64,000 bases of DNA from Halobacillus mangrovi (GTDB lineage Bacteria > Bacillota > Bacilli > Bacillales > Halobacillaceae): assembly GCF_002097535.1 (NCBI RefSeq), contig NZ_CP020772.1, positions 3,388,501 through 3,452,500 on the forward strand, written 5' to 3'. Position numbers and translations under genes: made by a program. Positions 11,873-63,984 of the stretch are shown here, one piece after another (position 1 is the stretch's first letter; each line of letters opens with the position of its first letter). The notes beneath the pieces were generated by a model. It searched no databases, was not told the DNA's origin, and saw only the letters and a program-made list of their open reading frames with translations.

Positions 11873-12006
11873 TTATCCGTACGATCCTCTCATCTCTTAG
11901 AATGCCTTTGCACTCTACAGGAATTGGCACCGTTCTCGTCAATCCTTAGATTGATTCGATGGTTGCCGGGCATCAAAGGGCCAGTCCCTCCGCCTCTCTG
12001 GATAAG
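11873..12006 (-). promoter_or_regulatory. SAM-I (S-box) riboswitch upstream of msrA
   Basis: On the minus strand the S-box core is nearly intact: CTTATCCAGAGAGGCGG, then GAGGGACTGGCCC, TGATGCCCGGCAACC, and downstream GGTGCCAATTCC. P1 can form from TTATCC and GGATAA at the two ends (12000-12005 and 11873-11878). A strong terminator follows, then msrA. Such elements switch off transcription when SAM is bound. The stretch 12007-12168 upstream holds no gene. Confidence 0.93.
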
Positions 12007-12168
12007 AAGTTTCCGTTATTATTTTTATTGTAGTTCCCATCTTACAATGTTTTGATAGTGAAGTAAAGGTGAATGCTTAAAAAAATTCCATTTTTGCACA
12101 TTCAGCTTTCTTTCCCTTATTGTATTCACCTGTTAGAAAGAAAATGCTAGGAAAAAGACCTAAAATGT

Positions 12169-32013: not shown

Positions 32014-32041
32014 CTACTTGTTCATCAACTTCATAGGTTTA

Positions 32042-32131
32042 ATGTAGGGGGACCAGTGTAGCTGGTTGAGATTGTATCCTTTTTGATACTGACCCTTAGA
32101 ACCTGATCTGGTTTATACCAGCGTAGGGAAC
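32042..32131 (+). promoter_or_regulatory. TPP (THI-box) riboswitch
   Basis: The aptamer core is plain: GGGGGACC, GGTTGAGATTGTA, GACCCTTAGAACCTGATCTGG and ACCAGCGTAGGGAAC in order. A terminator follows at 32165-32195. Thiamine pyrophosphate should stop transcription of the pyrimidine-uptake operon downstream. Confidence 0.95.
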
Positions 32132-32164
32132 ATCTGAAACGACTCATGTATCGTTATAAGATAT

Positions 32165-44011: not shown

Positions 44012-44041
44012 AAAGCCTTCCCTATTCAAAGGGAAGGCTTT
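44012..44041 (+). terminator. Terminator of the DUF1206 gene
   Basis: AAAGCCTTCCCT and AGGGAAGGCTTT form a 12-bp stem. Confidence 0.8.
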
Positions 44042-44174
44042 CGATTTTTGTCGCGAATGTACCGACGACCACATTCGTCGTTTAGCTTTTAAGCTTATAC
44101 TTCGTCTTACACAAACAGCTCATCGCCCTTAAACTATACAACATCTCTTGATGATTAGCAATGAATTTTTTCAT

Positions 44175-49728: not shown

Positions 49729-51912
49729 TCAAACTTTATTCAAGAGCAGTTGCTGCTTCCTTTCCAGGCGGCGTTTATGAAGGATCGGCTCTGTGTATCC
49801 ATTCGGCTGCGACAGCCCTTTGAAAACTAAATCACAGGCAGCTTGAAAAGCGATGGATTGGTCATAGTTTTCAGCCATAGGCTGATAGTCAGGATCCCCA
49901 GCGTTTTGCTGATCAACGACTTTGGCCATCCGCTTCATCGTCTCCAGTACCTGTTCGCCTGCCACGATGTTCTGATGCAGCCAATTTGCCATATGCTGGC
50001 TGGAGATTCTTAAGGTCGCCCTGTCTTCCATTAACCCGATGTTATGGATATCGGGGACTTTGGAACATCCGACCCCGTGGTTCACCCAGCGAACGACATA
50101 CCCTAAAATCCCTTGCGCGTTATTATCGAGCTCTTCCTGAATTTCTTCTTCGGACCAATCCGAATTCTCTGCGACAGGGATTTCCAGGATGTCCTCTCGA
50201 TAGTCCTGAATGTTTGCGGCAATTTGCTGCTGGGTAGCTTTGACGTTGTAGTAATGATAGTGGATCGCATGCAGCGTCGCTGCGGTCGGAGATGGCACCC
50301 AGGCGGTATTGGCTCCTGCTTTCAGCTGCGAGCCCTTCTCCTCAAGCATTGCCTTCATCATCTCCGGCATCGCCCACATCCCTTTTCCGATTTGAGCACG
50401 CCCGAACAGTCCTGCCTCTAATCCAACGCTAACATTTGATTTCTCATAAGCATCCAGCCACTTCGAACCTTTCATTTCCTTCTTCCTTATCATCGGTCCG
50501 GCAGCCATAGACGAATGAATTTCGTCTCCCGTCCGGTCCAGAAAGCCGGTATTGATGAAAACGATCCGTTCTTTCGCTTTCTCGATACAGTTTTTCAGAT
50601 TCAGCGTCGTACGTCTCTCTTCATCCATAATGCCCATTTTGATCGTGTTGCGGTTTAGCTTTAACAGATCTTCAATTCTGTTGAATAGATCATTGGCAAA
50701 AGCGACTTCTTCTGATCCGTGCATTTTCGGCTTAACGATATAGATGGATTTCTTCGCAGAATTTTCATAGCGGCTGTTTCTTATTAAATCGTGTCTGGCG
50801 ACAAGCGAAGTAAGTACGCCGTCCATGATCCCCTCTGGAACTTCCTCTCCTTTTTCATCCAGTATAGAAGGTGTCGTCATCAGGTGTCCGACATTTCTCA
50901 TAAACATAAGCGAACGGCCGTGGAGCGTAATATCTTCCCCTTCTGGCGTAATATACTTTCGATCAGGGTTCAAGTTCCGCGTAACGGTTCTGCCTGACTT
51001 TTGGAAGGTAGCCTTCAGCCTCCCTTTCATTAACCCGAGGAGATTCCGATAAACAAGCACTTTATCCTCGGCATCGACGGCTGCTACAGAGTCTTCACAA
51101 TCCATGATTGTAGTCGTGGCTGATTCCATCACGATATCACTAATGCCCACAGGATCCCTCTTACCAACCGGATGATTCGGGTTAATTTCGATTTCCAGAT
51201 GGAGGCCGTGATTTTGAAGCAGTATCGCTGACGGTTCTGATGGGGAACCTTGATACCCTTTGAATTGAGCTTGATTCTTCAGCGTTACTTTTTCTCCATT
51301 TTGAAGGATGGCGGCAAGGGTCCCTGCTTCAATGGCGTATGTAACGACATCTTTGTGAGAAGCCTGTTCGAGTGCGAAGATTTCATCAAGAAACGCTTTC
51401 GCATACGCCACGACCTTTTCTCCACGCTTCGGATTATAAGAGTTTCCTTTTTCAAAGCCTTCCTCTTCCGGAATGGCATCCGTTCCGTAAAGCGCATCGT
51501 ACAGGCTTCCATAACGGGCATTGGCTGCGTTGAGGGCATATCGGGCGTTATCTGCCGGGACAACGAGCTGAGGACCTGCCTGAACAGCAATTTCATCGTC
51601 CACATCCTTTGTAGTGATGGTAAAGTCCTCGCCTTCAGGTTCTAAATAATTGATTTCCTTGAGGAATTCTTTGTAGGAGTCTTTGTCATAAAAACCTGAA
51701 TGTTCGTTATGCCAAGTATCGATTTGTTTTTGGATCTTGTCCCTTTTGGCTAGCAGATCTTTATTGATCGGGGTTAACTCGTGGATTAACGTATCAAAAT
51801 CCTCCCAGAATTGATCCTGGTCCACTCCGCTTTCCGGCAGAGCTTCGGAGACAATGAATTCATATAATTTCGAATCGACCTCTAGATTTCCGACTTTAAC
51901 ATAGTCACTCAT
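49729..51912 (-). CDS. glcB: Malate synthase G
   Basis: 727 residues, the length of MSG-type enzymes. It condenses glyoxylate with acetyl-CoA to malate. Motifs: [17 protein letters not shown] near 270, [11 protein letters not shown] and [18 protein letters not shown] near 400, [17 protein letters not shown] near 430 and [18 protein letters not shown] near 470. It lies only 27 bp after xapX with no terminator between, so it appears to be the last gene of the nucleoside operon. No isocitrate lyase or glycolate oxidase is in the window. GGAGG precedes the ATG. Confidence 0.95.
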
Positions 51913-51939
51913 ATAATTCCTCCTTCATATGTGATTGAA

Positions 51940-52110
51940 TTATTGCAACCTGAGCAGTACGGTTTCTATAATCTTACCCCCAACGTACACACCCACAACT
52001 CCTAACACTCCTGCGAGGACAGGAGGCGCCGGCAGAGGCAGTTTAATCAATTTGAATACAATACCGATAATGATACCGGCGAGCATGGCAAGCACTGCTT
52101 CCTTGATCAT
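51940..52110 (-). CDS. xapX: XapX-domain small membrane protein
   Basis: 56 residues, two hydrophobic helices: MIKEAVLAMLAGIIIGIVFKLIKL, then the conserved PLPAPPVLAGVLGVVGVYVGG. This is the XapX domain, named for its place in a xanthosine phosphorylase locus. ATG at 52110 is preceded by AGGAGG, 17 bp after the isomerase gene. It may help nucleoside or sugar movement, but its role is not known. Confidence 0.85.
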   Translation of the reverse strand: MIKEAVLAMLAGIIIGIVFKLIKLPLPAPPVLAGVLGVVGVYVGGKIIETVLLRLQ

Positions 52111-52127
52111 GAAAGCTCCTCCTGTTC

Positions 52128-53201
52128 TTATTGAAGAATGTCCACTTTCTCTCTGACCTTTCTCAGATTGGTTTCAAATGGAGCCTGGATCACTCCTTTT
52201 TCGGTAATAATCCCTGTGATCAAGCGGTTTGGAGTGATATCAAAAGAAGGGTATAAAGCCTTCGTGCCCTCAGGAGCGATCGGAACTCCTTTAATCTGCG
52301 TCACTTCACTGGAGTCACGCATTTCAACTTCAATCGCTTTACCGCTCGGTGTATGGAAGTCGATCGTATGACTGGAGGTTGCCGTAAAAAAAGGTATACC
52401 GTGTTCCTTAGCGGCGAGGGCATGCATATACGTCCCAACTTTATTCGCCAGGTCCCCGTTTGCCGAGACACGATCGGAGCCGACGACGACTTTATCGATC
52501 ATCCTCTTACTCATACAAAATCCGGACATGTTGTCGGTGATCAACGTGTGAGGGATTCCGAACTTTTTCAATTCATAGGCGGTAATCCTTGAGCCCTGCA
52601 AGTAAGGACGCGTTTCACACGTAAATACGTGGATTTTTTTGCCTTGTTCATGAGCGGTTCGAATGACAGATAACGCACGTCCTCCATAGCCCGCTCCTCC
52701 TAGGGCACCGGAGTGGCAATGAGTCATAATCGTATCTCCGTCTTCGATTAATTCCGCCCCGTTTTCTCCCAATTGATATTCAAACTGAAGCTGGCGCTCA
52801 ATGATTTCTACTGCTTTTTCCTCTAATTGAGCGACCACATCTTCCCCTGAACCTTTGAAAGAGGCGACCATCTCATCGACCGTTTTCATTAAATTCACCG
52901 CAGTCGGGCGTGTACGTTTAAGAAGTTCCCCGGCTTGCTTGATATTTTCCGGATCGCCTTTAGACTGATAGGCGGCTAAATACACTCCGTACGCCCCGCA
53001 AAGACCGATGGCCCCAGAGCCGCGGATCATCATCGACCGAATCGCATCAGCCAGCTGTTTCACTTCCGAGAAAGAATAGATGATTTCATCAAAAGGAAGC
53101 TTCGTCTGATCAATGATCTTTAATTTCCCTTCCTCAAACCAGATGGGTAAAGCAAGCTCCTTTTCCTTCAAACGCTTTGCTAATGATTCTAACCTTTGCA
53201 T
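52128..53201 (-). CDS. MtnA-like aldose-1-phosphate isomerase
   Basis: 357 residues. The family catalytic residues are in place: Cys162 in TIMTHCHSGALGG and Asp243 in VVGSDRVSANGD; MIRGSGAIGLCGAYG near 58 is the substrate loop. It resembles S-methyl-5-thioribose-1-phosphate isomerase and its relatives DrdI and ribose-1-phosphate isomerases. It should turn a ribose-1-phosphate, 5-deoxyribose-1-phosphate or MTR-1-phosphate into the ketose. No mtnK, mtnW or other methionine salvage genes are near, so a role in full methionine salvage looks unlikely. GGAGGGC lies upstream of the ATG. Confidence 0.88.
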   Translation of the reverse strand: MQRLESLAKRLKEKELALPIWFEEGKLKIIDQTKLPFDEIIYSFSEVKQLADAIRSMMIRGSGAIGLCGAYGVYLAAYQSKGDPENIKQAGELLKRTRPTAVNLMKTVDEMVASFKGSGEDVVAQLEEKAVEIIERQLQFEYQLGENGAELIEDGDTIMTHCHSGALGGAGYGGRALSVIRTAHEQGKKIHVFTCETRPYLQGSRITAYELKKFGIPHTLITDNMSGFCMSKRMIDKVVVGSDRVSANGDLANKVGTYMHALAAKEHGIPFFTATSSHTIDFHTPSGKAIEVEMRDSSEVTQIKGVPIAPEGTKALYPSFDITPNRLITGIITEKGVIQAPFETNLRKVREKVDILQ

Positions 53202-53218
53202 ACCTTGCCCTCCTTTAC

Positions 53219-53827
53219 TTAATTGGTTACTGGACTTTCGACGCTGGCACGCAGCTGCGTTAAGATAAATGATTGTTTTGCTGTAGCCTCCGCAAGGTCG
53301 ACGACGTTATAGGCGGCCTCAAGTGTAGGGCCAACCGAACACACTCCATGGTCTTTCATAAGTGTGATTTTAATTCCCGGGTTCTGGATGAAAACATCCG
53401 TCACATGCTGAGCCAGTTCTTTCGATCCGGATGGCGCCACGTCAGCTAATGGAACGTGACCGAGCAGCTTGCGGGCCGTTACAGTTGGAAGCGGCAGCTC
53501 TCTCCCTAAACATGCGTACCCAATCGAGTAATTCGGGTGGCAGTGGACAACGGCATTCACGTCAGGACGGACTTTATAAATTCCTAAGTGGAAGCCTATC
53601 TCTTTCGACGGCTTCCCTTGCCCTTCAACAACCTCGCCGTCCATGTTAACGATCAAGGCATCTTCTTTACTTACTTCCCCAAGGCTGATGCCGCTTCGTT
53701 TAATCAGCACATGATCGGTACCTGGAATACGAACGCTGATATTACCACCAGTCGCCTGGGTGTACCCTTTTTGATAGACTTTATGAGAGACATACTCCAG
53801 TTCTTTTTTTAATAAATCTAAACTCAT
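53219..53827 (-). CDS. Class II aldolase (FucA/DrdA-like)
   Basis: 202 residues. Zn ligands His95 and His97 (VVHCHPNY) and His160 (MKDHGV), with Glu76 (KPSKEIGFH), match the class II aldolase/adducin family. It would cleave a ketose-1-phosphate into DHAP plus an aldehyde: glycolaldehyde from ribulose-1-P, acetaldehyde from 5-deoxyribulose-1-P, or methylthioacetaldehyde. It lies 17 bp before the isomerase gene. GGAGG precedes the ATG. Confidence 0.9.
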   Translation of the reverse strand: MSLDLLKKELEYVSHKVYQKGYTQATGGNISVRIPGTDHVLIKRSGISLGEVSKEDALIVNMDGEVVEGQGKPSKEIGFHLGIYKVRPDVNAVVHCHPNYSIGYACLGRELPLPTVTARKLLGHVPLADVAPSGSKELAQHVTDVFIQNPGIKITLMKDHGVCSVGPTLEAAYNVVDLAEATAKQSFILTQLRASVESPVTN

Positions 53828-53844
53828 TTTCGTCGCCTCCTAAT

Positions 53845-55281
53845 TTATTTATAAAATTGATTGTAAAATGCCTTTACGTGCGGCTTCAGCTCGTCTGCTA
53901 AGGCGAGGGAAGAAGTGCTGTTTTCTGCTATTTTCTGAGAGCGGTGTTGAGCTCTTTGGATCACATGGTATTCATCGAATGACAGGATTTGATTATTTCG
54001 CATGACCCACTCCCCCTTGATCATGACGCTGTCTACCGACTGGCCCGTTTCGTGGAAGACCAGCTGTGATGGGATATGGTGGTCCGAAGCCCATGTGGTT
54101 GTAGTTTTGTTTAAGAAGACGAGATCCGCGTCATAGCCGCTTTCTATTCGACCACGGGGACTGCCTCCGATGATTTTCGCTCCATTTCCACAAACCATTT
54201 CTAGCATTTGGTAAGGAGTAGCCCAGGTTTCGAAATCTGGCTGAGAGCTGCGATGAATCATCGCCCCTAACCGCATCGTTTCAAATAGGCTATGGGCTGT
54301 TCCACAGTTGCTGGCATCGGTGCCGAGGGCGAGAGGCACCCCTTTTTCCAGATAATCATGAATCGGAGCCCTTCCGCTTCCAAGCATCATATTACTCGCC
54401 GGGTTATGAATGACGAATACCCCTCGATCCTTTAAGAGATCTATTTCGTCCGAATTCAGCCATACTGCATGAGCGACAGACAGCCTGTCATTCAGCAACC
54501 CAAGCTGATCTAATTCATAGACTAAGCCGTTTTTATAGAATCTCCTGCTATAACTCTCTTGAATCTTTGTCTCCAGTAAATGGGTGTGGACTTGGAGGTC
54601 AAAGCGTTCACTCAATTCCTTACATAGTTTCAAAGCTTCGGTACTGCAGCGCTGAGGAGCATTCGGACCTGCCATGATACGAATTCTTCCCTTTTTCTCA
54701 TGCCAGTCATAGACTAAATGAATATAGAACTCCTTCATTTCTTCGATCGTTTTTGGCTGACTGGTTTCCAGCTTTTCCATTAAATGCGGCGGTAAATCCA
54801 GCTGGAGAAACCGATGGTCCGGAATATCATGAAGCATCGGAGCTACCGAAACGTGCATCTTCGATTGTTCGTAAGCCTTTAAGGCGGCGTCCACTTTTGG
54901 AAGGTGCGGAAAATGATCGATACACCCTGTAACGCCGCTTCGGATCATTTCTGCAGCTCCTAACAACACAGCTAATTCTATATCTTCCTCTGTCAGCGAG
55001 TGACCGTAAGCGACTGTGTATAGAGACCATAGTTCCAAAGGGAGGGCGTTTTCTGTCCCTTTTAACAAATTGGAATACGAATGATAGTGGGCATTGGTCA
55101 TGCCCGGCATCACGATCATCCCTTCCCCATCAACGGCTTCCTCTGCCTGTAAAGAAGATTCATCGTAGGGTTGTGGAATCACCTTGACCACCTTTCCGTT
55201 TTCTATTACAATAGCCCCTTTGAAAATGGCCTCCCCCGGTCTCATAGACAAAATGTCAGCATTCTTTATGAGTGTACGCAT
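53845..55281 (-). CDS. Amidohydrolase, MTA/SAH (5'-deoxyadenosine) deaminase-like
   Basis: 478 residues, metal-dependent TIM barrel: NAHYHS (His pair near 65-67), HTHLLET near 235, SVAHAVW near 270 and LGTDAS near 320. It resembles 5-methylthioadenosine/S-adenosylhomocysteine deaminases, which turn the adenine base to hypoxanthine in nucleosides. Cytosine or guanine deaminase remains possible. The starts GTG 55284 and ATG 55281 follow six bases after mtnP with no clear ribosome site, which suggests coupled translation. Confidence 0.85.
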   Translation of the reverse strand: MRTLIKNADILSMRPGEAIFKGAIVIENGKVVKVIPQPYDESSLQAEEAVDGEGMIVMPGMTNAHYHSYSNLLKGTENALPLELWSLYTVAYGHSLTEEDIELAVLLGAAEMIRSGVTGCIDHFPHLPKVDAALKAYEQSKMHVSVAPMLHDIPDHRFLQLDLPPHLMEKLETSQPKTIEEMKEFYIHLVYDWHEKKGRIRIMAGPNAPQRCSTEALKLCKELSERFDLQVHTHLLETKIQESYSRRFYKNGLVYELDQLGLLNDRLSVAHAVWLNSDEIDLLKDRGVFVIHNPASNMMLGSGRAPIHDYLEKGVPLALGTDASNCGTAHSLFETMRLGAMIHRSSQPDFETWATPYQMLEMVCGNGAKIIGGSPRGRIESGYDADLVFLNKTTTTWASDHHIPSQLVFHETGQSVDSVMIKGEWVMRNNQILSFDEYHVIQRAQHRSQKIAENSTSSLALADELKPHVKAFYNQFYK

Positions 55282-55287
55282 CACTTA

Positions 55288-56088
55288 CTAGACTTGGGTC
55301 GTTTCCATCTTGGCAAGCTTCTCTTTTCTAGCTGCAAGCGCCCGCTCGTAAGCTTCATGGGCTATGGAAGGTTTATCATCTGAAGCCAGCTCGATCGTTT
55401 TTAAGAAAAGCTCTTTGATTTTCTCCTGGTTATCGATCACAACATTTTTATGGGTATCAAGATCTGGTGGAACATCCGTCGTCCCAGCCGCTAAATCTGT
55501 CGAGATCGTTACAACGGCATACGCAATGCCAAGTTCTCTTGCCAGACTCGCTTCTGTCGCATTCGTCATCCCGACAACGTCCATGCCCCACTGCTTGTAC
55601 ACATTGATTTCAAGCGATGTTTCATAGCGGGGGCCATCGACGCAAATGTAATTGGCTTTAGGCGTGACATCCATGTCCAGCTCTTTCGCAGCGGCAAGGA
55701 AGGTGTTGTTAAGATCCGGACAGTAAGGCTGAGTAATTTCTACGGAATACTTTCCGTACGTGTTCTCCCGCTTCGTTGTCATGTCCATGAACTGGTCGAG
55801 TAAAGCTAGTGCTCCTACGGGAATATCCGGATTTAATGATCCGACCGCACACATGGCGATCACATGATCAATCCCCAGCTGTTTTAACGCCAGCATATTA
55901 GCTCGATAATTGACCTGGTGCGCTAAACTATCATGAGACTTTCCATGACGGGGTAAAAAATAGATTTCCTTGCCAGCATGCGTCCCTTCAAAGACAACTG
56001 CTTCTCCATACTCGGTAGGAACCGTCATTTCCCTCAAATCTTCTACTAAGTTATAAAAGCCCGTGCCTCCGATAATTCCTATTTTCAT
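55288..56088 (-). CDS. mtnP: MTA/purine nucleoside phosphorylase
   Basis: 266 residues. GIIGGTGFYN near the start, FLPRHGKSHDSLAHQVNYRANM near 45-65, YICVDGPRYETSLEI near 150 and GMTNATEASLARELGIAY near 175 are those of the MTAP/PNP-II family. It cleaves MTA, 5'-deoxyinosine or a purine nucleoside with phosphate to a base plus a sugar 1-phosphate. Start overlaps the stop of the previous gene by four bases. Confidence 0.9.
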   Translation of the reverse strand: MKIGIIGGTGFYNLVEDLREMTVPTEYGEAVVFEGTHAGKEIYFLPRHGKSHDSLAHQVNYRANMLALKQLGIDHVIAMCAVGSLNPDIPVGALALLDQFMDMTTKRENTYGKYSVEITQPYCPDLNNTFLAAAKELDMDVTPKANYICVDGPRYETSLEINVYKQWGMDVVGMTNATEASLARELGIAYAVVTISTDLAAGTTDVPPDLDTHKNVVIDNQEKIKELFLKTIELASDDKPSIAHEAYERALAARKEKLAKMETTQV

Positions 56089-56957
56089 AGTGTTTGACCT
56101 CCCTGGTTTCCAAGTAATAGAGATGGATAGAAATACGGTTTTCCAGATTGTTTCTTCAAATCATCCCAGTAACTGAGGATTTTTGTCGCTTCCGTTGCCA
56201 CAGCAATCGACTGCTCCACCCCTTCGCCTTTATACTCAAATTCATCTTTTACTCGATTGGCGACCGCTGTAAAAATGGCGCCCGCTCGCAATTGGAAGAG
56301 ATTACTGAGCGTTAATACAGTAGCCGCTTCCATTTCAAAATTTAATACGCCAGCCCGCTGCATATCGTCCATGATCGTATGCATCCAGCTTTGGTTATAA
56401 TTTCGAAATCCCGGTCTTCCCTGTCCGCAGAAGAAGGAAGCAGCGGTATAACCAATCCCCACATGATAGTTAACTCCGAGACGTTCGGCAGCTTCAATCA
56501 GAGCCATGACGACTTCCTGGTTGGCGACAGCGGGATACTTGTCATCCACATACTGATCACTTGTCCCGTCATTCCGAACAGCCCCAGCACAAATGATCAA
56601 ATCCCCTGGTGCAATATCTTCCTGCATCGCACCGCATGTCCCTACGCGAAGGAACGTTTCCGCACCGATCTCAGCCAGTTCTTCCAACGCGCTCGCTGTC
56701 GATGGACCACCAGCTCCGGTTGAGCAAGCGGAGATTCCTACGCCTCCCACTTTACCTGTGTATGTAACATGCTCACGGTAAGTGGCTACATGCCTTTGTT
56801 CATCCCATAATTTCGCCATTTGCCCCACCCGTTCAGGGTCTCCTGGCAGCAGCACATATTTTTCTACATCCCCTGGACGGCACCGAATGTGATATTGAGA
56901 TTGATCCGCTGATTCTGGTCGATTTGCTTTTGCTTTCCATTTAAGATCTTGAGCCAA
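56085..56957 (-). CDS. Uridine/purine nucleoside phosphorylase (PNP_UDP family)
   Basis: 290 residues. VLLPGDPERVGQM near 36, TGAGGPSTASALEELAEIGAETFLRVGTCGAM near 80-110, LNFEMEAATVLTLSNLF near 208 mark the family I nucleoside phosphorylases, closest to uridine phosphorylase in layout. It starts at TTG with GGAGG nine bases upstream and overlaps the ATPase gene by 17 bp. With mtnP it gives the operon two phosphorylases of unlike families. Confidence 0.9.
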   Translation of the reverse strand: MAQDLKWKAKANRPESADQSQYHIRCRPGDVEKYVLLPGDPERVGQMAKLWDEQRHVATYREHVTYTGKVGGVGISACSTGAGGPSTASALEELAEIGAETFLRVGTCGAMQEDIAPGDLIICAGAVRNDGTSDQYVDDKYPAVANQEVVMALIEAAERLGVNYHVGIGYTAASFFCGQGRPGFRNYNQSWMHTIMDDMQRAGVLNFEMEAATVLTLSNLFQLRAGAIFTAVANRVKDEFEYKGEGVEQSIAVATEATKILSYWDDLKKQSGKPYFYPSLLLGNQGGQTL

Positions 56958-57789
56958 CTTTAACTGCCTCCTTTTGGTTTGAATCCATCCATTCTAAGAT
57001 AGAATCTACGGTTAGATAGGTTTGATTTGAATCGAAGTGCGAGATTTGATTTGCGAATGTGGTAATCTGCGGAGGCTGAAGTCCTGCTTCCTCCATAATG
57101 CTTTTATCTGAGAAAACAACCTTCGCATGATCGTCTGCAATTTTCTGGCTTTGGTTCATAACGACTGTGCGGCAGTTCAGCTCCCCGATCAAATGCATGT
57201 CATGGGTAATCAAGACGACGATATGGCCATGTTCTTTAAACATTTTGACCAGCTCCAGCACTCGTTTACAGCCTTTATGGTCCTGCCCTGTCGTTGGTTC
57301 ATCAAGCACAATAACTTTCGGCGATACCGCCATAATCGAAGCCATCGCTACTTCCTTGCGCTGACTGGAGTTAAGGTCAAAAGGGTTGTCCTCTAACTGG
57401 TCTTCCAGTTCAAAGATTTCTATGGCCTTTTGGACACGTGTTTCAATTTCCTCATCATCCATCTTTAAATTTTTACATCCATAAGCCAGTTCTTGCCCGA
57501 CCGTCGGAAGGAATGTCTGATGATTCGGATTCTGGAACACATACCCGACAAGGCTGGATAGTTTAGCGATCTTCTCTTTCTTCGTGTTTAAGCCGCCGAT
57601 CGTGATCTCTCCGGTTGTCGGTGTAAGTAAACCGTTAAAGTGTTTGACGAGCGTCGTTTTTCCAGACCCATTGCTTCCTAAGATGGCTACAACTTCGCCT
57701 TCATGAATGTCTAAGTTGATGTCCTGGATCGCCTTCACACCGCCAGGATACACATGGGAAACATTTTTCACTGAAATATACGGATTCAC
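56941..57789 (-). CDS. ecfA: ECF transporter ATPase with an atypical signature motif
   Basis: 282 residues. Walker A GSNGSGKTTLVKHFNG near 35, Walker B VIVLDEPTTGQDHKG near 155 and switch His in LITHDMHL. The usual LSGGQ signature is replaced by LNSSQRKEVAMA near 128-139, so one of the two ATP sites may be inactive. It pairs with the next ATPase under EcfT. Start GTG at 57789 has AGGAGGG six bases upstream; the longer frame overlaps the neighbour. Confidence 0.9.
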   Translation of the reverse strand: MNPYISVKNVSHVYPGGVKAIQDINLDIHEGEVVAILGSNGSGKTTLVKHFNGLLTPTTGEITIGGLNTKKEKIAKLSSLVGYVFQNPNHQTFLPTVGQELAYGCKNLKMDDEEIETRVQKAIEIFELEDQLEDNPFDLNSSQRKEVAMASIMAVSPKVIVLDEPTTGQDHKGCKRVLELVKMFKEHGHIVVLITHDMHLIGELNCRTVVMNQSQKIADDHAKVVFSDKSIMEEAGLQPPQITTFANQISHFDSNQTYLTVDSILEWMDSNQKEAVKVGSRS

Positions 57790-57809
57790 TTCTATCCCTC
57801 CTGTTGGTC

Positions 57810-58664
57810 TCACCTGTTTTTGTATGCGTTTTCAAAAATGGATACAGATTCTTCAACTGTTGTCGCTAACTTGAGATCCTGGTTAAATTTCTGATTGTAC
57901 CCTGCCAGAAATTCTGTGACTTGCGGAGCATGAAGCGTGAGGGCGTGCAACTCCTCTATTTCTGTGAAAATTTCTTCTGGTGTGCCGAACATTTGGATTT
58001 CGCCATGATTCAGGACAAGCACTTTGTCACAATATGCCGCAATTCGTTCGACTTCATGGTCGATGATGATTCCTGTCATCCCGTAGTCCTTTAAATTCTG
58101 GAGCACGTCATAAACTTCATTCTTCCCTTTTGGATCAAGCATCGAAGTTGGTTCATCCATAATCATGATCGTCGGTCTCATCGCTAATACCGCTGCAATC
58201 GCGAGACGCTGCTGCTGACCTCCCGATAAGGCAAGCGGGCTTCTCTTTTCAAACCCAGTCAGGCCTACCTGCGCTAAAGCGTCCTTGATTCGAATGAGCA
58301 TTTCATCTCTTGAAACACCGAGGTTCCCCATTCCGAAAGCAATTTCTTCCTCAATCGTCATTTGGCTTAATTGGTTCTCAGGTTCCTGGAAAACAAAGCC
58401 GACATGTTCGGACATTGCCGCTACATTGCTCTCATGGACATCGATGCCTCTTACAGTCACTTGACCTTCCATTTCTCCATTGATTACCTGGGGGACGAGT
58501 CCGTTGATACACATCGCTAACGTCGACTTCCCAGCTCCTGTAGGACCAATGATACCGAGGATTTCTCCATTTTCGATCGAAAAATTAATATCTTTCAGCG
58601 TATCTCCTTCAGTATCAGGATACCTGAAGGTGAGGTCTTTGACTTCAATGGCTATTTCACTCAT
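57810..58664 (-). CDS. ecfA: ECF transporter ATPase
   Basis: 284 residues. Walker A GPTGAGKSTLAMCINGL near 38, Q-loop VFQEPENQLSQMTIEEEIAFG near 90, intact signature LSGGQQQRLAIAAVL near 145, Walker B IMIMDEPTSMLD near 168. It starts four bases before the end of ecfT. It forms the energising module with the other ATPase. Confidence 0.93.
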   Translation of the reverse strand: MSEIAIEVKDLTFRYPDTEGDTLKDINFSIENGEILGIIGPTGAGKSTLAMCINGLVPQVINGEMEGQVTVRGIDVHESNVAAMSEHVGFVFQEPENQLSQMTIEEEIAFGMGNLGVSRDEMLIRIKDALAQVGLTGFEKRSPLALSGGQQQRLAIAAVLAMRPTIMIMDEPTSMLDPKGKNEVYDVLQNLKDYGMTGIIIDHEVERIAAYCDKVLVLNHGEIQMFGTPEEIFTEIEELHALTLHAPQVTEFLAGYNQKFNQDLKLATTVEESVSIFENAYKNR

Positions 58665-59557
58665 GAACTAACGCCTCCGATCTTCCCCTGAACTTGTTTA
58701 TAAAGAAATTTCACTAACATAAACCCGCATACGATCCACGTTCCGATTAAGGAGTAGGTCAACAATGCGTCTGTCGTAAGGTGAAGAGATCCCATCATGA
58801 ACAGTTTGAGGTAAATTTCAAACGCAAATGCAGCGAGCATCGCTAACAAAAAGGTGTAGTCAAGGGAACCAATTTTAGTTTCTCTTAAGCTCGTTTTGTT
58901 GCCCTTCCTGCTGAATGCCCGGCATTCAAGCACGTAGGAGAGCTGGTGGACCTTCATAAACGTGATGATAAATAGTGGGGCAAACATCGGTACAAGGTTT
59001 TTCACTCGTTGAATCAGGTTGCCTTTCACATCCAAACACCTGGCTTGCTGAGCTTCCATCACGATTTTCGCTTCTCTTGCGATGATCGGAATGATCTGGA
59101 ACGTCGAAAGCAAAATGAAAGCAAAAGAGTGAGGAACTTTCCATTTCACTAAGGCAGAGGCCATATCTGATGGATGAGTCGTCATAACAAATAGAACAGC
59201 TGCCGTACCGATGACTAAGATTCTGAAAGACATGACGGAAGCATAAACCATCGATTCATACTTGAAAGTCAGACCTCCGAAAATTTCAAATACAGGTGTA
59301 ACTCCAATCGGATTATAGATTCCATGAACGGTCATAATGAGGACAGCAAATAGCAGAAGGAACTGAATCGATACGAGATAAGGTTTGACTAGCTTTGCGG
59401 CGACCACTAAAGGAAATAAAGCGACAAGTAAAACTAGCTGGAGAGCCGGGTCATTTAAAATAAACGAACTGGCAACAACAAAAGCGACAAAAATCATTTT
59501 AGTCCTCGGATCTAAGCTGTGAATCAGACTATCTTTTTGCATATACAAACTGTTCAA
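58661..59557 (-). CDS. ecfT: ECF transporter transmembrane protein EcfT
   Basis: 298 residues, five to six helices. IHSLDPRTKMIFVAFVV at the N-terminus and the coupling helices EAQQARCLDVKG near 168 and LECRAFSRKGNKT near 216 are the EcfT signatures. Start TTG at 59557 has GGAGG seven bases upstream. The S component is encoded about 2.2 kb upstream at 61797-62414. Confidence 0.92.
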   Translation of the reverse strand: MNSLYMQKDSLIHSLDPRTKMIFVAFVVASSFILNDPALQLVLLVALFPLVVAAKLVKPYLVSIQFLLLFAVLIMTVHGIYNPIGVTPVFEIFGGLTFKYESMVYASVMSFRILVIGTAAVLFVMTTHPSDMASALVKWKVPHSFAFILLSTFQIIPIIAREAKIVMEAQQARCLDVKGNLIQRVKNLVPMFAPLFIITFMKVHQLSYVLECRAFSRKGNKTSLRETKIGSLDYTFLLAMLAAFAFEIYLKLFMMGSLHLTTDALLTYSLIGTWIVCGFMLVKFLYKQVQGKIGGVSS

Positions 59558-59592
59558 ATCATTTCCTCCTTCTTCATTCAGTGTATTTGTTC

Positions 59593-60609
59593 TTAGTGGA
59601 CGTCTACAACTCTGCTTGTCGACCCCCGTTCAATGAGCGTCGGCTGGAAGGTAACCGTTTCTTTGAAGTTCTTGCCTTCCTTGACGATTTTGACAATTAA
59701 TTCAACGGTTTTTTGCCCCATTTCAGAGATTGGCGTACGAATCGTCGTTAATTCCGGGTCAACGATCTCTGCAAATTGCGAATCATCAAACCCGATGACC
59801 GACAGTTGTTCAGGAACGTTCAACCCAAGCTCTCGTGCCGCCTTGTAGATCCCGACGGCAATCGCATCATTTCCTGCAAAGATCGCTGTCGGCCGGTCTT
59901 TTCTCGAAAGCATTTCCAATCCTTTGTTATAACCACTGTGAATCTTAAATTCATCAAGTTTCACATAATTATTATTCAGTTTTACTTTATAATCCTCGAG
60001 GGCTTCTTGATAACCTTTATACCGCTCGACGGTCGAATAAGAATCCGGCTGCCCGCCAATATACCCAACCTTCTGGTGACCAAGTTCCAGCAAGTGTTTC
60101 GTCGCCTGGTAGCCCCCTTCAAAGTTATCCACTAAAACTTCGTCCAGCCTTACATCTTTCACCTGACTTCCGAGAATAATGAGAGGCAGGTCAGGTCTCG
60201 TCTTCATAATTTCACGGACATTTCTATCGTTGATTTCCGGCGTTGAGAAAATGATTCCGTCAATTCCTTTTCGAAGTAGAAAGTTTAGATACTCCGACTC
60301 TTTGCTCAAGTCGTTGTCCGTGTTGCAAAGGATGACATTAAAGCCATGCTTATGAGCTTCATCTTCGATGGCCCTTGTCAGTTCGCCATAAAAAATGTTT
60401 TTAATATCCGGGATGATTAACCCAAGGGTCGATGTTTGTTTCTTGATCATCGCCGTTGCTACCATATTTTTTTGAAACTTCAGCTCATCCACTGCTTTAT
60501 GGACTTTTTCCTTCGTAGAGGCGCTCGTGTATCCACTATTGTTCAGTACTCTGGAAACTGTTGATATGGATACGTTCGCTACTTTTGCCACGTCTTTAAT
60601 CGTTACCAT
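59593..60609 (-). CDS. LacI-family transcriptional regulator
   Basis: 338 residues. DNA-binding helix-turn-helix TIKDVAKVANVSISTVSRVLNNSGY at 3-27, hinge near 55, then a periplasmic-binding-like domain with SVIGFDDSQFAEI near 275. It heads the operon and has a GGAAACGTTTCC palindrome 24 bp upstream, suggesting autoregulation. The inducer may be a nucleoside or sugar phosphate. ATG at 60609 has AGGAAGTG upstream. Confidence 0.92.
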   Translation of the reverse strand: MVTIKDVAKVANVSISTVSRVLNNSGYTSASTKEKVHKAVDELKFQKNMVATAMIKKQTSTLGLIIPDIKNIFYGELTRAIEDEAHKHGFNVILCNTDNDLSKESEYLNFLLRKGIDGIIFSTPEINDRNVREIMKTRPDLPLIILGSQVKDVRLDEVLVDNFEGGYQATKHLLELGHQKVGYIGGQPDSYSTVERYKGYQEALEDYKVKLNNNYVKLDEFKIHSGYNKGLEMLSRKDRPTAIFAGNDAIAVGIYKAARELGLNVPEQLSVIGFDDSQFAEIVDPELTTIRTPISEMGQKTVELIVKIVKEGKNFKETVTFQPTLIERGSTSRVVDVH

Positions 60610-60631
60610 TTTCACACTTCCTATCATTTTA

Positions 60632-60645
60632 TGGAAACGTTTCCC
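60632..60645. promoter_or_regulatory. Operator O1, LacI/cre-like
   Basis: GGAAACGTTTCC (60633-60644) is a perfect palindrome upstream of the lacI gene. It also partly resembles a CcpA site. Confidence 0.6.
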
Positions 60646-60783
60646 TGTATTTCGATCATTATATGGATGATCGTCGTTCCATCCCCGGGAAAATCCGTTT
60701 TCTAGTTGTTTTCATTATACTTTAATAGGAGGTTTATTTTCAATAATATTCTGAAAATATTGAAATATTTAATGAAAATTATA

Positions 60784-60800
60784 TGGAAACGTTTTTACAT
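60784..60800. promoter_or_regulatory. Operator O2, LacI/cre-like
   Basis: TGGAAACGTTTTTACAT. The identical 17-mer occurs in reverse complement at 62491-62507 (O3). It lies between the FAH gene and lacI. Confidence 0.6.
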
Positions 60801-60825
60801 GAACTCAAAATAAAGGAAGGTTGTA

Positions 60826-61608
60826 TTACACATTTACCTTACGCTTTGAACGAATGACGCGATTCTCTAAAGAACCAATTCCTTTAATCTTACATTCAAC
60901 CTCATCATGTTCACTCAAAAACTCCGCCCCAACCGGGCTTCCTGTTAAAATGACGTCTCCAGCCTTAAGCGTCATGACTTTACTCAAGTAAGAAATCATT
61001 CGCTTTATCGGGACGATCATCAGGTATGTTGGGCTATCTTGTTTCTTCGTTCCATTATGAAACGCTTGAATCCTTGCTTGAGCAGGATCGAAGTTAGTTT
61101 CTATCACCGGCCCCAGTGGCGTGAATGTATCGAACGACTTCCCGAGCGTCCAGTGCCCATCCTTATGGAAGAATTGAGGAGCTGTCACATCATTTCCAAT
61201 CGTATAGCCAAAGACGTAATCCAGCACGTCTTTTTCTTCAATATCCTTCGCTTCTTTTCCGATGACTACGGCCAGCTCTGATTCAAATTTCACTTCTTCA
61301 ATCGTTTCCGGAATGACGATATCCCTTTCCGGACCGATGACGGATGAAAGGGATTTAAAGAAAAACACTGGCATCTCTGGACCTTCTTCTGGCAAGTCCT
61401 TTTTATCGGCTACATAATTGGCGCCGATTCCGATGATTTGATTTGGCACGATCGGCGCTAGCCATTCCACTTCTTCACTCGAGAACGTCTGCCCTAGGTA
61501 AAACCAATCAGAATAGATGTCCCCACTAATTTCTGCAACACCGTCAGATGTGAGTACTCCCTGCTTTATTTCATTATCACTGTTCAATGTAAACCTGCCA
61601 AACTTCAT
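60826..61608 (-). CDS. Fumarylacetoacetate hydrolase (FAH) family protein
   Basis: 260 residues. Metal-binding glutamates appear in KFESELAVVIGKEAKDI near 107, and GYTIGNDVTAPQFFHKDGHWTLGKSFDTFTPLGP near 135-168 plus LKAGDVILTGSPVGAEFL near 220 complete the family. Members hydrolyse acylpyruvates or decarboxylate oxaloacetate. Its link to nucleoside use is not obvious and may be indirect. GGAGG precedes the ATG. Confidence 0.88.
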   Translation of the reverse strand: MKFGRFTLNSDNEIKQGVLTSDGVAEISGDIYSDWFYLGQTFSSEEVEWLAPIVPNQIIGIGANYVADKKDLPEEGPEMPVFFFKSLSSVIGPERDIVIPETIEEVKFESELAVVIGKEAKDIEEKDVLDYVFGYTIGNDVTAPQFFHKDGHWTLGKSFDTFTPLGPVIETNFDPAQARIQAFHNGTKKQDSPTYLMIVPIKRMISYLSKVMTLKAGDVILTGSPVGAEFLSEHDEVECKIKGIGSLENRVIRSKRKVNV

Positions 61609-61638
61609 CGACAGTCCTCCCTAGTTCTTTTTTTTTTA

Positions 61639-61681
61639 TTGGAAAAAGGTCAAAGCGTCAGATGATTTGACCCTTTTCCAA
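61639..61681. repeat. Inverted repeat before the FAH gene
   Basis: TTGGAAAAAGGTCAAA (61639-61654) and TTTGACCCTTTTCCAA (61666-61681) pair at 15 of 16 positions around 11 bases. On the minus-strand transcript it is followed by an A-run, not a U-run, so it is not a typical terminator for the S-component gene. Confidence 0.6.
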
Positions 61682-61796
61682 GTGTTAACCAGTTGTTATT
61701 TATTGATTTCTAGTCTTTTCTTCTATAAAATCTTAGGTAAGCTGAAAGAGCATCATACAACCCTCGTCCAAAAGTGTGTTGTGTTGATGTTCTTTT

Positions 61797-62414
61797 TTAT
61801 GCGGACATTTTTCTTTCCTTATGCTTACTCTTCACTGCTCCGATCTTTTCCCTGATATCTTTAGCGTTCGGAAGAAAGCGTACTGGGAAGATCTTAAGTA
61901 TCATCCAAACAATCCAGAATGTAAGGATTTTATCTGCCATAGTGCCAGGGATATTGGCGATAAACGCAGCGTTAAATATTTGCTGACCTGAGGCAATCAG
62001 TCCAGCCGTCAACACATCGACGGTATGACCGGAAAAACCACCAAAAACATAGACAGATATCACTGTAGCTACTGCTGAAGCTAGTAATCCAGTAACCGCA
62101 CCTGAAGTAATAACCTTCCACCCCTTCTTAAACCAGCCTTTTTTATAGAAAAAGTGGGCTAAGAAAGCGACAAATATTCCAACTGCAGCAAATGGTAAGT
62201 AGGTCCAACGAACAATAAGTGCCAGAATCACATTCGTCATCAATGCTGTGGCTCCGCCCCAAAGCGGTCCAAGCACAATGGCATTCAACACGGTTCCTAT
62301 GTTATTCAAAAACAACGGAAGCTTTAGCATCTCAACAATCGAATTCGCTACCCAGTTCAACGCAATACCGGCAGGAATCATGGCTACAATGAAACTCGAA
62401 TTCTTTTTCATCAT
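61797..62414 (-). CDS. ECF transporter substrate-specificity (S) component
   Basis: 205 residues, five to six helices. IPAGIALNWVANSIVEMLKLPLFLNNIGTVLNAIVLGPLWGGATALMTN near 14-62 is an S-component N-terminal region, and the Lys-rich tail (KSKHKERKMSA) faces the cytoplasm. Ligand is unknown; the company of two nucleoside phosphorylases and ECF energy genes suggests a nucleoside or 5'-deoxynucleoside. The start is uncertain by one codon (62414 or 62411). Operators O3 and O4 lie upstream. Confidence 0.85.
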   Translation of the reverse strand: MMKKNSSFIVAMIPAGIALNWVANSIVEMLKLPLFLNNIGTVLNAIVLGPLWGGATALMTNVILALIVRWTYLPFAAVGIFVAFLAHFFYKKGWFKKGWKVITSGAVTGLLASAVATVISVYVFGGFSGHTVDVLTAGLIASGQQIFNAAFIANIPGTMADKILTFWIVWMILKIFPVRFLPNAKDIREKIGAVKSKHKERKMSA

Positions 62415-62490: not shown

Positions 62491-62507
62491 ATGTAAAAAC
62501 GTTTCCA
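62491..62507. promoter_or_regulatory. Operator O3, LacI/cre-like
   Basis: ATGTAAAAACGTTTCCA, exact reverse complement of O2 at 60784-60800, upstream of the S-component gene. Confidence 0.6.
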
Positions 62508-62538: not shown

Positions 62539-62554
62539 ATGGAAACGCTTTCTT
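62539..62554. promoter_or_regulatory. Operator O4, LacI/cre-like
   Basis: ATGGAAACGCTTTCTT matches 15 of 16 positions of the cre consensus WTGNNARCGNWWWCAW, so CcpA may bind here instead of, or beside, the LacI protein. It lies between the S-component gene and the divergent P450 gene. Confidence 0.5.
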
Positions 62555-62736
62555 AAAAAGAATTATACATAGAGAGTTTTCAAATTTCAACAATTTTTTG
62601 AAAATACTAATTATTTACATTCACCTCACTCTCTTCTCTACTTTCATTTTAGCCACTTTTCTCATCCAGACTGGTTTATTCAATGGTTTTCAGAGGAAAC
62701 TAATAGAACATGTAAACCATGAGGAGGGGCATACAT

Positions 62737-63984
62737 ATGGCCATGAAAGTACCGAAAGACAGAACCTTAGACAATACACTTATTCTTTTTAAAGATGGAT
62801 ATGAATTTATACCCAAACGCGTTCAAAATCATCATTTAGATGTATATGAAACCAGATTGTTAGGTCAAAAAGTAGCACTTTTAAGCGGAGAAAAAGGGGC
62901 AGAGCTTTTTTATGATACCAAACGTATGAATAGGAATGGAGCTTTGCCTAAACGCGTTTTAAAAACGTTATTTGGAGAAAACGCAATACAAACAATGGAT
63001 GGTGAAGCTCATGCCCACCGCAAGCTTTTGTTTATGTCTTTAATGACACCTGAAGCATTAGAAAACCTCCGTGAACTCACAACTACCTATTGGGAACAGT
63101 TTGCCGGCAAATGGCAAGGGATGAAAAAAGTTGTCCTTTATGATGAGACTCGTGAACTATTATGCCGGACAGCGTGCGATTGGGCAGGAGTACCTCTATT
63201 AGAAAAAGAGGTCCCAAAACGAACCGAGGATTTAAGTAAGATGATCGATGGATTCAGCGCAGTGGGTCCTAAGCATATCGAGAGCCGAAGAGCGCGTAAA
63301 CGTTCAGAAAAATGGATAGAAAACCTTATTATTAAAGTAAGAGAAGGTAAACTTGATCTTCAGGAAGGTACAGCACTTTATGAGATGGCAAACCATAGAG
63401 ATCTTAAAGGAAAACAACTGGATGCCCGTATGGCTGCCATTGAGCTCCTTAATGTAATCCGCCCGCTTGTTGCCATATCCAAATTTCTAACATTTGGAGC
63501 CGTTGCCCTTGAGGATTTTCCTCATACAAAACCTCAAGTGGCTGGAGACGACGATTATCTCTTCCACTTCACTCAGGAAGTTAGGCGTTATTACCCATTT
63601 GTCCCTTACTTGGGTGCGTGCGTTAATCATGATTTTACCTGGCAGCAATACTCATTTAAAAAAGACCAACTTGTCCTTATCGACGTTTACGGAACGAACC
63701 ACGACCCGCGTATATGGGAGGATCCAGACACTTTCAAACCAGAACGATTTCAAGATTGGGAAGGCGGACTATTTGACTTGATCCCTCAAGGAGGAGGCGA
63801 CTATTATAAGGGACACCGCTGTCCTGGTGAATGGCCGACACTCGAAGTTCTTCAGGCAAGCTTTCAATTTATGGCACGCCACCTTCAGTACAAGGTTCCT
63901 AAACAAGATTACAGCTACAGCCTTCGTAAGATGCCCTCGCTTCCAAAGAGCGGGTTCATCATGAAAGAAGTCACTATGAGATAA
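62737..63984 (+). CDS. CYP152-family fatty-acid peroxygenase (P450)
   Basis: 415 residues. Heme-thiolate Cys362 in GHRCPGE and the CYP152 carboxylate-binding pair Arg242-Pro243 in NVIRPLVAISKF are at the family positions. Residue 85 is Gln (NAIQTMDGEAHAHRK), as in the B. subtilis hydroxylase P450-BS-beta (CYP152A1), while the decarboxylase OleT has His. It should use H2O2 to hydroxylate fatty acids near the carboxyl end. The ATG at 62737 has GAGGAGGGG upstream. The gene appears complete; nothing further can be read before the right edge. Confidence 0.92.
   Translation: MAMKVPKDRTLDNTLILFKDGYEFIPKRVQNHHLDVYETRLLGQKVALLSGEKGAELFYDTKRMNRNGALPKRVLKTLFGENAIQTMDGEAHAHRKLLFMSLMTPEALENLRELTTTYWEQFAGKWQGMKKVVLYDETRELLCRTACDWAGVPLLEKEVPKRTEDLSKMIDGFSAVGPKHIESRRARKRSEKWIENLIIKVREGKLDLQEGTALYEMANHRDLKGKQLDARMAAIELLNVIRPLVAISKFLTFGAVALEDFPHTKPQVAGDDDYLFHFTQEVRRYYPFVPYLGACVNHDFTWQQYSFKKDQLVLIDVYGTNHDPRIWEDPDTFKPERFQDWEGGLFDLIPQGGGDYYKGHRCPGEWPTLEVLQASFQFMARHLQYKVPKQDYSYSLRKMPSLPKSGFIMKEVTMR

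Follow-up and report, generated by a model that had tools for sequence, protein, structure and literature searches.

A minus-strand run of thirteen genes in Halobacillus mangrovi is probably a catabolic operon for ordinary ribonucleosides, in which ribose-1-phosphate would be split into dihydroxyacetone phosphate (DHAP) and a two-carbon (C2) unit. The run lies in a stretch of 64,000 nucleotides, here called the window, which covers positions 3388501-3452500 of the source genome (4,142,697 bp, a single contig). It extends from position 62414 of the window down to 49729 and holds the gene of an energy-coupling factor (ECF) S component, a gene of the FAH superfamily and then an 11-gene block from lacI to glcB (49729-60627). 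From gene order, protein families, conservation, operators, clade and active-site differences and co-occurrence, we infer the substrates, the reactions and the sign of regulation.

In the proposed route, the S component, EcfT, EcfA and EcfA' would form a dedicated nucleoside importer. An enzyme of the uridine phosphorylase type and an MTAP-family enzyme with a purine nucleoside phosphorylase (PNP) site would convert pyrimidine and purine nucleosides, with inorganic phosphate, to alpha-ribose-1-phosphate, and an amidohydrolase would deaminate a purine nucleoside or base. An isomerase of the MtnA superfamily would turn ribose-1-phosphate into ribulose-1-phosphate, which a class II aldolase would cleave to DHAP and glycolaldehyde. 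Enzymes encoded elsewhere would convert glycolaldehyde to glycolate and then to glyoxylate. Glyoxylate would enter central metabolism as malate through malate synthase G, together with the FAH enzyme and, in those relatives that encode one, a malic enzyme. The LacI protein would repress both promoters, one before the S-component gene and one before lacI.

Gene order and distribution

An earlier note on this DNA had described eleven minus-strand genes from lacI to glcB, overlapping or at most 35 bp apart, and all of them are present as described. When junctions were measured with the first start codon of every open reading frame (ORF), spacing was 35 bp or less throughout and four junctions overlapped. 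A gap of 35 bp separates lacI from ecfT; ecfT overlaps ecfA1 by 4 bp, ecfA1 overlaps ecfA2 by 4 bp, ecfA2 overlaps udp by 17 bp and udp overlaps mtap by 4 bp. The remaining gaps are 3 bp (mtap to the amidohydrolase gene), 17 bp (amidohydrolase to aldolase, aldolase to mtnA, and mtnA to xapX) and 27 bp (xapX to glcB). This spacing and the conserved order suggest that the eleven genes are cotranscribed.

Our survey of relatives covered 61 genomes, 37 of them from the same family, and included 13 carriers (12 own-family genomes and one from another family, G055). Of the 12 regions fetched from relatives, 11 contain all thirteen genes in identical order and the twelfth (G055) holds a partial set; this conservation of gene order exceeds chance. 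The operon-type aldolase (at least 89% identity) and an IF-2B/MtnA-type protein co-occur in the identical 12 of 37 own-family genomes, and G055 has both isomerase and aldolase at 68-69%. Neither the IF-2B protein nor the operon-type aldolase was found in the other 25 own-family genomes, some of which have distant aldolases. Because it co-occurs with the operon-type aldolase across the family, the isomerase, which is the sole IF-2B protein of the source genome, is an accessory gene gained and lost together with the operon. The lack of an IF-2B protein in the 25 genomes without the operon counts against a role in methionine salvage.

A scan of genome contigs seeded with the aldolase gave 147 loci, and the best 80 were analysed. 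An isomerase of at least 50% identity is encoded in 24 of these, hereafter the system loci; the other 56 were excluded from system counts. Together with the window, L033 and L034, the system loci make 27 distinct loci (L043 is L057; L032, L035-L042 and L044-L052 represent the same genomes), the closest named ones being from Halobacillus and Thalassobacillus. The contigs of L061, L072 and L105 end inside the neighbourhood, so a gene missing there is weak evidence of absence. A lacI-S-T-A-A-udp-mtap-amidohydrolase-aldolase-isomerase unit without FAH or glcB, in which the order of lacI and S varies, is present in two Halobacillus, Neobacillus thermocopriae and Moorella stamsii. The neighbourhood search that the earlier note had proposed for the isomerase-aldolase pair thus shows the association with ecfA and ecfT recurring in Bacillaceae and Moorella.

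Loci from Lachnospiraceae and Tissierellaceae (L059, L060, L064, L068 and L077) carry a Bmp/PnrA-type ABC importer and no ECF. Adenosine deaminase is encoded in four loci (L068, L072, L077 and L105) and a DeoD-type phosphorylase in three (L059, L060 and L064); these clostridial importer, deaminase and DeoD calls were made by hidden Markov model (HMM) for one member per family and by BLAST for the others. The cut contig of L072, from a Tissierellia metagenome-assembled genome, additionally has Bmp-type permeases, and at L072:2195-7314 genes for an aldehyde:ferredoxin oxidoreductase, an IlvD-like and a LarA-like protein stand beside adenosine deaminase and the isomerase-aldolase pair.

Four loci (L056:683-6802, L057:695-6811, L058:3865-9959 and L100:602-6717) have extra genes between the ECF genes and the isomerase-aldolase genes. 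These encode a 2-phosphosulfolactate-phosphatase-like protein, a uridine-type phosphorylase, an aldehyde dehydrogenase, a nickel-pincer isomerase (LarA-like, NPN group 22) and an IlvD/EDD-type dehydratase, identified by HMM on L057 and by BLAST elsewhere. Perhaps they form a second, oxidative nucleoside-sugar route and offer a context clue for the nickel-pincer group.

The isomerase and the aldolase

The isomerase gene (52128-53201; this and all gene coordinates below are on the minus strand of the window) adjoins the class II aldolase gene (53219-53827), and the pair is conserved. A maximum-likelihood tree of 40 proteins groups the 24 full-length system isomerases in a single clade (support 99/97). 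Outside it lie nine MtnA references (eight kinase-linked ones and Moorella's own), one DrdI-type reference and two archaeal ribose-1,5-bisphosphate (R15P) isomerases. The 24 rows, from the window and 23 loci, were picked by motif and are identical when picked by context; repeats and the truncated L072 isomerase (171 aa) were left out of the tree. Moorella keeps a canonical MtnA separately alongside its system isomerase.

The clade also differs at the active site. The window isomerase has the motifs RGSG, CHSG, GGRAL and GSDR, and all 24 members have RGSG, CH[SA]G and GGR[AT]L, the last with one inserted residue. Thus, RGSGA[IL][GA] stands in place of RGAPAIG and GGR[AT]L in place of GTAL, and His rather than Asn directly follows the Cys of the CH[SA]G/CNAG motif, which we take to be catalytic. 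The eight kinase-linked MtnA references and the DrdI-type reference have RGAPAIG, CNAG and GTAL; the two archaeal R15P isomerases have RGAG or RGAA and CNS or CHS at the equivalent places. This likeness to R15P isomerases weakly suggests that the clade acts on a 5-oxygenated substrate, and we predict a ribose-1-phosphate isomerase.

A class-wide draw of 398 genomes, of which 37 had an isomerase match at E 1e-80, contained no further member of the clade, and the system is therefore rare in that draw. The other 36 matches are 43-48% identical, and RGAPAI[GA] and CN[AT]G were present in 28 parsed of the 29 fetched from these 36. Moorella encodes, at L062:18920-19984, a further MtnA-superfamily protein that is divergent (36%) and lacks the usual RGAP and CNAG motifs; an NMT1-type ABC gene and a gene for a phosphodiesterase-like protein lie nearby. 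Another divergent one occurs in L170.

The aldolase is of the FucA type (PF00596), with 6btd as its best Protein Data Bank (PDB) chain (90.7 bits) and fuculose-phosphate-aldolase-type chains nearest to it; aldolases of two kinase-isomerase-aldolase clusters are 30-32% identical to it. It is predicted to act on ribulose-1-phosphate. Its products would follow from the substrate: ribulose-1-phosphate would give DHAP and glycolaldehyde, and 5-deoxy analogues would give acetaldehyde or methylthioacetaldehyde in place of glycolaldehyde.

Methylthioribose (MTR) kinase, MtnK, scores over its cut-off in 11 of the 61 relatives and in none of the 13 carriers, with a single partial 20-bit match in G055. 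None of the 80 aldolase loci has an MtnK/DrdK-like ORF at E 1e-8, and at E 1e-3 there was one weak partial match, in a locus without isomerase; the same four references recovered the kinase in all six loci used as a control. A methionine-salvage MtnA was rejected on the absence of MtnK over cut-off in the carriers, the separate clade and the differing motifs; later salvage genes were not searched. The haloarchaeal enzymes were likewise rejected, the isomerase scoring 216.8 bits with the R15P isomerase model TIGR00511 (cut-off 314.1; the two archaeal references 391 and 459) and the aldolase 91 bits with the ribulose-1-phosphate aldolase model NF053831 (cut-off 300).

Phosphorylases and amidohydrolase

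The uridine-phosphorylase-type protein (56085-56957) scores 266 bits with TIGR01718 (cut-off 280.3), and its Moorella orthologue is just over at 283.4. A GQ[GN]R motif (GQxR; Q179 and R181 in the window) is present in all 24 uridine-type rows, from the window and 23 of the 24 system loci, and aligns with GQER of two uridine phosphorylases; the residues of this loop presumably bind uracil.

The MTAP-family protein (55288-56088) is encoded in 20 of the 24 system loci. It scores 234 bits with TIGR01694 (cut-off 274.85), and the three relatives scanned are also below. In human PNP, Glu201 and Asn243 bind the 6-oxopurine and His257 binds the 5'-OH, as described in passages of PMC3214022, and the His257 contact also appears in part of PMC12648331. 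In our alignments with six PNPs, the PNP His fell in the column of His213 in two of three modes, and five of the six PNPs have the Glu and the Asn. Both MTAP references have Val at the 5' position and Ser at the purine position in all three modes. An MTA phosphorylase (MTA, methylthioadenosine) was therefore rejected: the cut-off is missed, and Glu and His replace Ser and Val.

All 24 MTAP-like rows have Glu156 and His213, and position 198 is Asp in 20, including the window, and Asn in 4. We predict that the window enzyme accepts adenosine. L056, L057 and L100 have two MTAP-like copies each, one of the Asp and one of the Asn type, which would fit adenosine-type and inosine/guanosine-type enzymes.

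The amidohydrolase (53845-55284; PF01979) is a predicted nucleoside or base deaminase. In the PDB it is closest to a triazine chlorohydrolase and to MTA/S-adenosylhomocysteine (SAH)-deaminase-type enzymes. Among Bacillaceae loci the nearest is 91% identical and the others 46-60%, and L058 lacks the gene.

The ECF importer

All four parts of an ECF importer are encoded: the S component (61797-62414), EcfT (58661-59557; PF02361, CbiQ) and two ABC ATPases, EcfA (57810-58664) and EcfA' (56941-57813). The ATPases have conserved positions and match best the NCBIfam models for ECF ATPase 1 (272.7 bits, cut-off 315) and ECF ATPase 2 (246.3 bits, cut-off 330). The S component is closest to the CD3073-family model of NCBIfam (125 bits, cut-off 180) and scores 23 bits with Pfam ECF_trnsprt, also below cut-off. 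Its AlphaFold model (pLDDT 74.5) has ECF S components as its top six Foldseek matches (RibU, BioY and 4huq chain S among them; E 0.12-0.42). The cargo is predicted from context to be a nucleoside, mainly because two unrelated importers accompany the same enzymes.

The C2 branch

Malate synthase G (glcB, 49729-51912) scores 1234 bits with TIGR01345, over the cut-off, and the source genome has a second copy at 3510919. The FAH-superfamily enzyme (60826-61608; PF01557) has a predicted downstream role with an organic acid. Elsewhere in the genome, paralogues of glcB and FAH (66% and 62%) form a cluster with homologues of glcD, glcE and glcF and with a gene of the lactate-permease family. FAH and glcB are jointly present in 12 of the 27 distinct loci, and in 5 of the 12 full operons a malic enzyme gene stands between S and FAH (L047:979-2202, which is L036, and at the same place in L034, L037, L040 and L041). 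The C2 genes fit a path from glycolaldehyde through glycolate, glyoxylate and malate to pyruvate, and the FAH paralogue, the malic enzyme and the co-occurrence of FAH and glcB favour C2 acids derived from the sugar. A glyoxylate shunt only is disfavoured by the same three observations, though it could still hold for glcB alone.

Between mtnA and glcB lies a gene for a XapX-like small membrane protein (51940-52110; DUF1427, PF07235, 28.3 bits against a cut-off of 27.1). This small hydrophobic protein is also encoded in all 11 of the relatives' full operons, as well as in L054, L056, L057 and L100.

Operators and transcription units

The LacI-family protein (59593-60627; PF00356, Peripla_BP_3) is a predicted local repressor. 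The strict operator AARCGTTTCCAYA has five exact matches in the 4.14-Mb genome, of which four are at the locus and the remaining one falls within an ORF; when up to one mismatch was allowed, there were 53 genomic matches and 27 for a reversed control pattern. Two operators precede the S-component gene (62539-62552, nearer the promoter, and 62493-62506), and two precede lacI: a distal one (60783-60796) and a palindromic one, GGAAACGTTTCC, at the lacI start (60631-60646). Of 11 loci examined, 10 have sites of this type both upstream of S and upstream of lacI. No operator of the AARCGTTTCCAYA form lies within 300 bp of FAH in any of the seven FAH-bearing loci examined. The operators that the earlier note had assigned in common to S, FAH and the lacI run therefore stand before S and lacI only. 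Four operators at both promoters are most naturally read as sites of the local LacI repressor.

Promoter-like sites with 11 of 12 consensus positions precede S (62562-62590, minus strand, TTGAAA-17-TATAAT) and lacI (60714-60743, minus strand, TTGAAA-18-TATAAT); such region-wide scans are at chance level, both for promoter-like sites (23 against 21.0) and for terminators (10 against 13.0). A hairpin with a T run at 61679-61641, found by eye and with a loop too long for the terminator scan, suggests that the S component terminates its own transcript, and the locus therefore probably comprises three transcription units.

Divergent from S, on the plus strand (62719-63984), is a gene for a CYP152-family fatty-acid peroxygenase, CypC (631 bits, over cut-off). 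Rfam matches elsewhere in the window are a T-box leader (1433-1640), a SAM riboswitch (11887-12008), a TPP riboswitch (32036-32146) and the small RNA BsrF (44015-44126).

Discussion

Several parts of the earlier proposal hold up. Nucleoside phosphorolysis is backed by the uridine-phosphorylase homologue and by the PNP-type residues of the MTAP-like enzyme, and formation of a sugar 1-phosphate without a kinase by the kinase searches. The pairing of the isomerase with the class II aldolase is supported, local LacI control agrees with the placement of the strict operators, and nucleoside import is supported from context by the importer that replaces ECF in clostridial loci. The system had also been called self-contained, which is overstated, as genes for glycolaldehyde and glycolate oxidation are needed from elsewhere. 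The source genome has three glcD homologues, one over the curated cut-off, which could serve the glycolate step; glycolaldehyde dehydrogenase was not searched for.

The 5'-deoxynucleoside alternative of the earlier note is not supported. It would make the locus a kinase-free DHAP shunt for by-products of S-adenosylmethionine (SAM), with imported MTA or 5'-deoxyadenosine phosphorolysed, isomerised and cleaved to DHAP and methylthioacetaldehyde or acetaldehyde. The gene families do match the kinase-or-phosphorylase, isomerase and aldolase clusters treated in part of PMC6079011, the isomerase is over the MtnA cut-off, and MTA/SAH deaminases are among the relatives of the amidohydrolase. However, the shunt has no role for the uridine phosphorylase homologue of 23 of the 24 system loci; the MTAP-like enzyme is below the MTAP cut-off and carries His at a position that is Val in the two MTAP references; the isomerase is outside the MtnA/DrdI clade; and adenosine deaminase is encoded in four sister loci. 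Furthermore, neither aldehyde gives glyoxylate, yet glcB, FAH and malic enzyme accompany the system in 12 of 27 loci. We therefore consider this explanation unlikely.

A little less likely again is broad scavenging of ordinary and 5'-modified nucleosides by promiscuous enzymes with no single main substrate. DrdA takes various aldehydes, according to a passage in PMC6079011, and two phosphorylases and a deaminase would widen the range, but the isomerase clade has uniform motif changes, which point to selection for a single class of substrate. It is very improbable that the ECF importer carries other cargo, such as a vitamin or cofactor precursor, with the sugar genes serving intracellular RNA turnover and only the regulator in common: the solved S components matched do bind riboflavin or biotin, but the ECF genes overlap a phosphorylase gene within one operon and clostridial loci carry a Bmp/PnrA-type importer in place of ECF.

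A number of observations weigh against catabolism of ordinary ribonucleosides. The phosphopentomutase gene deoB is present in 61 of 61 relatives, including the source genome, in which a classical PNP gene is about 100 bp away; because of these genes, ribose-1-phosphate already has its usual route and the operon would be an additional one. The isomerase passes the NCBIfam MtnA cut-off (TIGR00512, 373 against 279 bits), so pipelines using that model label it MtnA. The S component is below its family cut-off and its fold match is weak, with no Foldseek match under E 0.001. The third alignment mode puts the PNP His three residues off His213, one of the six PNP references has Met and Asp in place of Glu and Asn, and the amidohydrolase is nearest to MTA/SAH/5'-deoxyadenosine-deaminase-type models, though far below their cut-offs. 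Both glcB and FAH are missing from 15 of the 27 loci, and malate synthase G could serve acetate use because the source genome has an isocitrate lyase. No operator of this kind was found in the Moorella locus, and the operators look like CcpA cre sites, so joint control by LacI and CcpA is possible.

Known systems share parts of this arrangement. Group I ECF importers consist of S, T and two ATPases, a dedicated module under one control, whereas here the module is attached to a carbon-catabolic operon and is predicted to carry a nucleoside. During growth of E. coli on D-arabinose, FucA cleaves D-ribulose-1-phosphate to DHAP and glycolaldehyde, the substrate coming from ribulose by a kinase; the cleavage is the same, but here ribulose-1-phosphate would come from a nucleoside. 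The Streptomyces fluorometabolite pathway is biosynthetic and works on 5-fluoro-5-deoxy sugars. It has a nucleoside phosphorylase, an MtnA-like isomerase and an aldolase in series, as here (part of PMC7408626). The DHAP shunt (mtnK or a phosphorylase, mtnA and ald2) is alike in passing from a sugar 1-phosphate to a ketose 1-phosphate and then to DHAP and an aldehyde, with an MtnA-superfamily isomerase and a class II aldolase. In pathogenic E. coli its substrates are 5'-deoxynucleosides or 5-deoxypentoses and a kinase is used, according to sections of PMC10986504 and PMC12632272; the system described here differs in having no kinase, a uridine phosphorylase homologue, a separate isomerase clade and C2-acid genes.

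The drdAIK route for 5-deoxyribose disposal in Bacillus thuringiensis, in the relevant portion of PMC6079011, has the isomerase-aldolase pair in common and a DrdK kinase, whereas no kinase gene stands beside the isomerase and aldolase here. We rejected this route, as no MtnK/DrdK-like ORF was found in the 80 loci and none is over cut-off in the genome; the DrdI-type reference (L160, from a kinase-isomerase-aldolase cluster) also keeps the MtnA motifs and falls on the MtnA side of the tree, in contrast to the separate clade of the system isomerases. The haloarchaeal non-carboxylating pentose bisphosphate pathway likewise joins nucleoside phosphorolysis to the cleavage of ribulose-1-phosphate into DHAP and glycolaldehyde (PMC9700705, in part). 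Passages of the same paper have ribulose-1-phosphate made by a ribose-1-phosphate kinase, an R15P isomerase and a ribulose-1,5-bisphosphate phosphatase, and glycolaldehyde reduced to ethylene glycol, whereas here one isomerase would replace the three enzymes and glycolaldehyde is apparently oxidised. In the way it would work, the system thus resembles the DHAP shunt and the last part of the haloarchaeal pathway, but it lacks the defining features of methionine salvage, drdAIK and the R15P route.

What appears to be new is the predicted ribose-1-phosphate isomerase together with the nucleoside ECF importer. In the open-licence PubMed Central literature we found no report of a plain ribose-1-phosphate isomerase, of a nucleoside ECF importer or, in bacteria, of a direct split of ribose-1-phosphate into three- and two-carbon pieces, which is weak evidence of absence. 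Where use of the term 'ribose-1-phosphate isomerase' was checked, in two of the seven papers that contain it (one of them PMC7408626), it meant the methylthioribose enzyme, and the searchable text of the review PMC6302742 contained neither glycolaldehyde nor ECF, nor ribose-1-phosphate as a free-standing word. We lean, with some reserve, towards an undescribed bacterial route for the ribose of nucleosides, additional to phosphopentomutase and the archaeal pentose bisphosphate pathway, in which a ribose-1-phosphate isomerase would feed a ribulose-1-phosphate aldolase behind a nucleoside-specific ECF importer, and which would be spread through Bacillaceae, Moorella and Clostridia with interchangeable importers.

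If this reading is true, the locus would encode a new enzyme activity, ribose-1-phosphate isomerase, and would add a further function for proteins whose scores yield the name 'MtnA'. An orphan group of ECF S components would be assigned to nucleosides. The operon would also let these bacteria turn the sugar of RNA into DHAP and a C2 unit by a short path that needs no ATP, transketolase or transaldolase.

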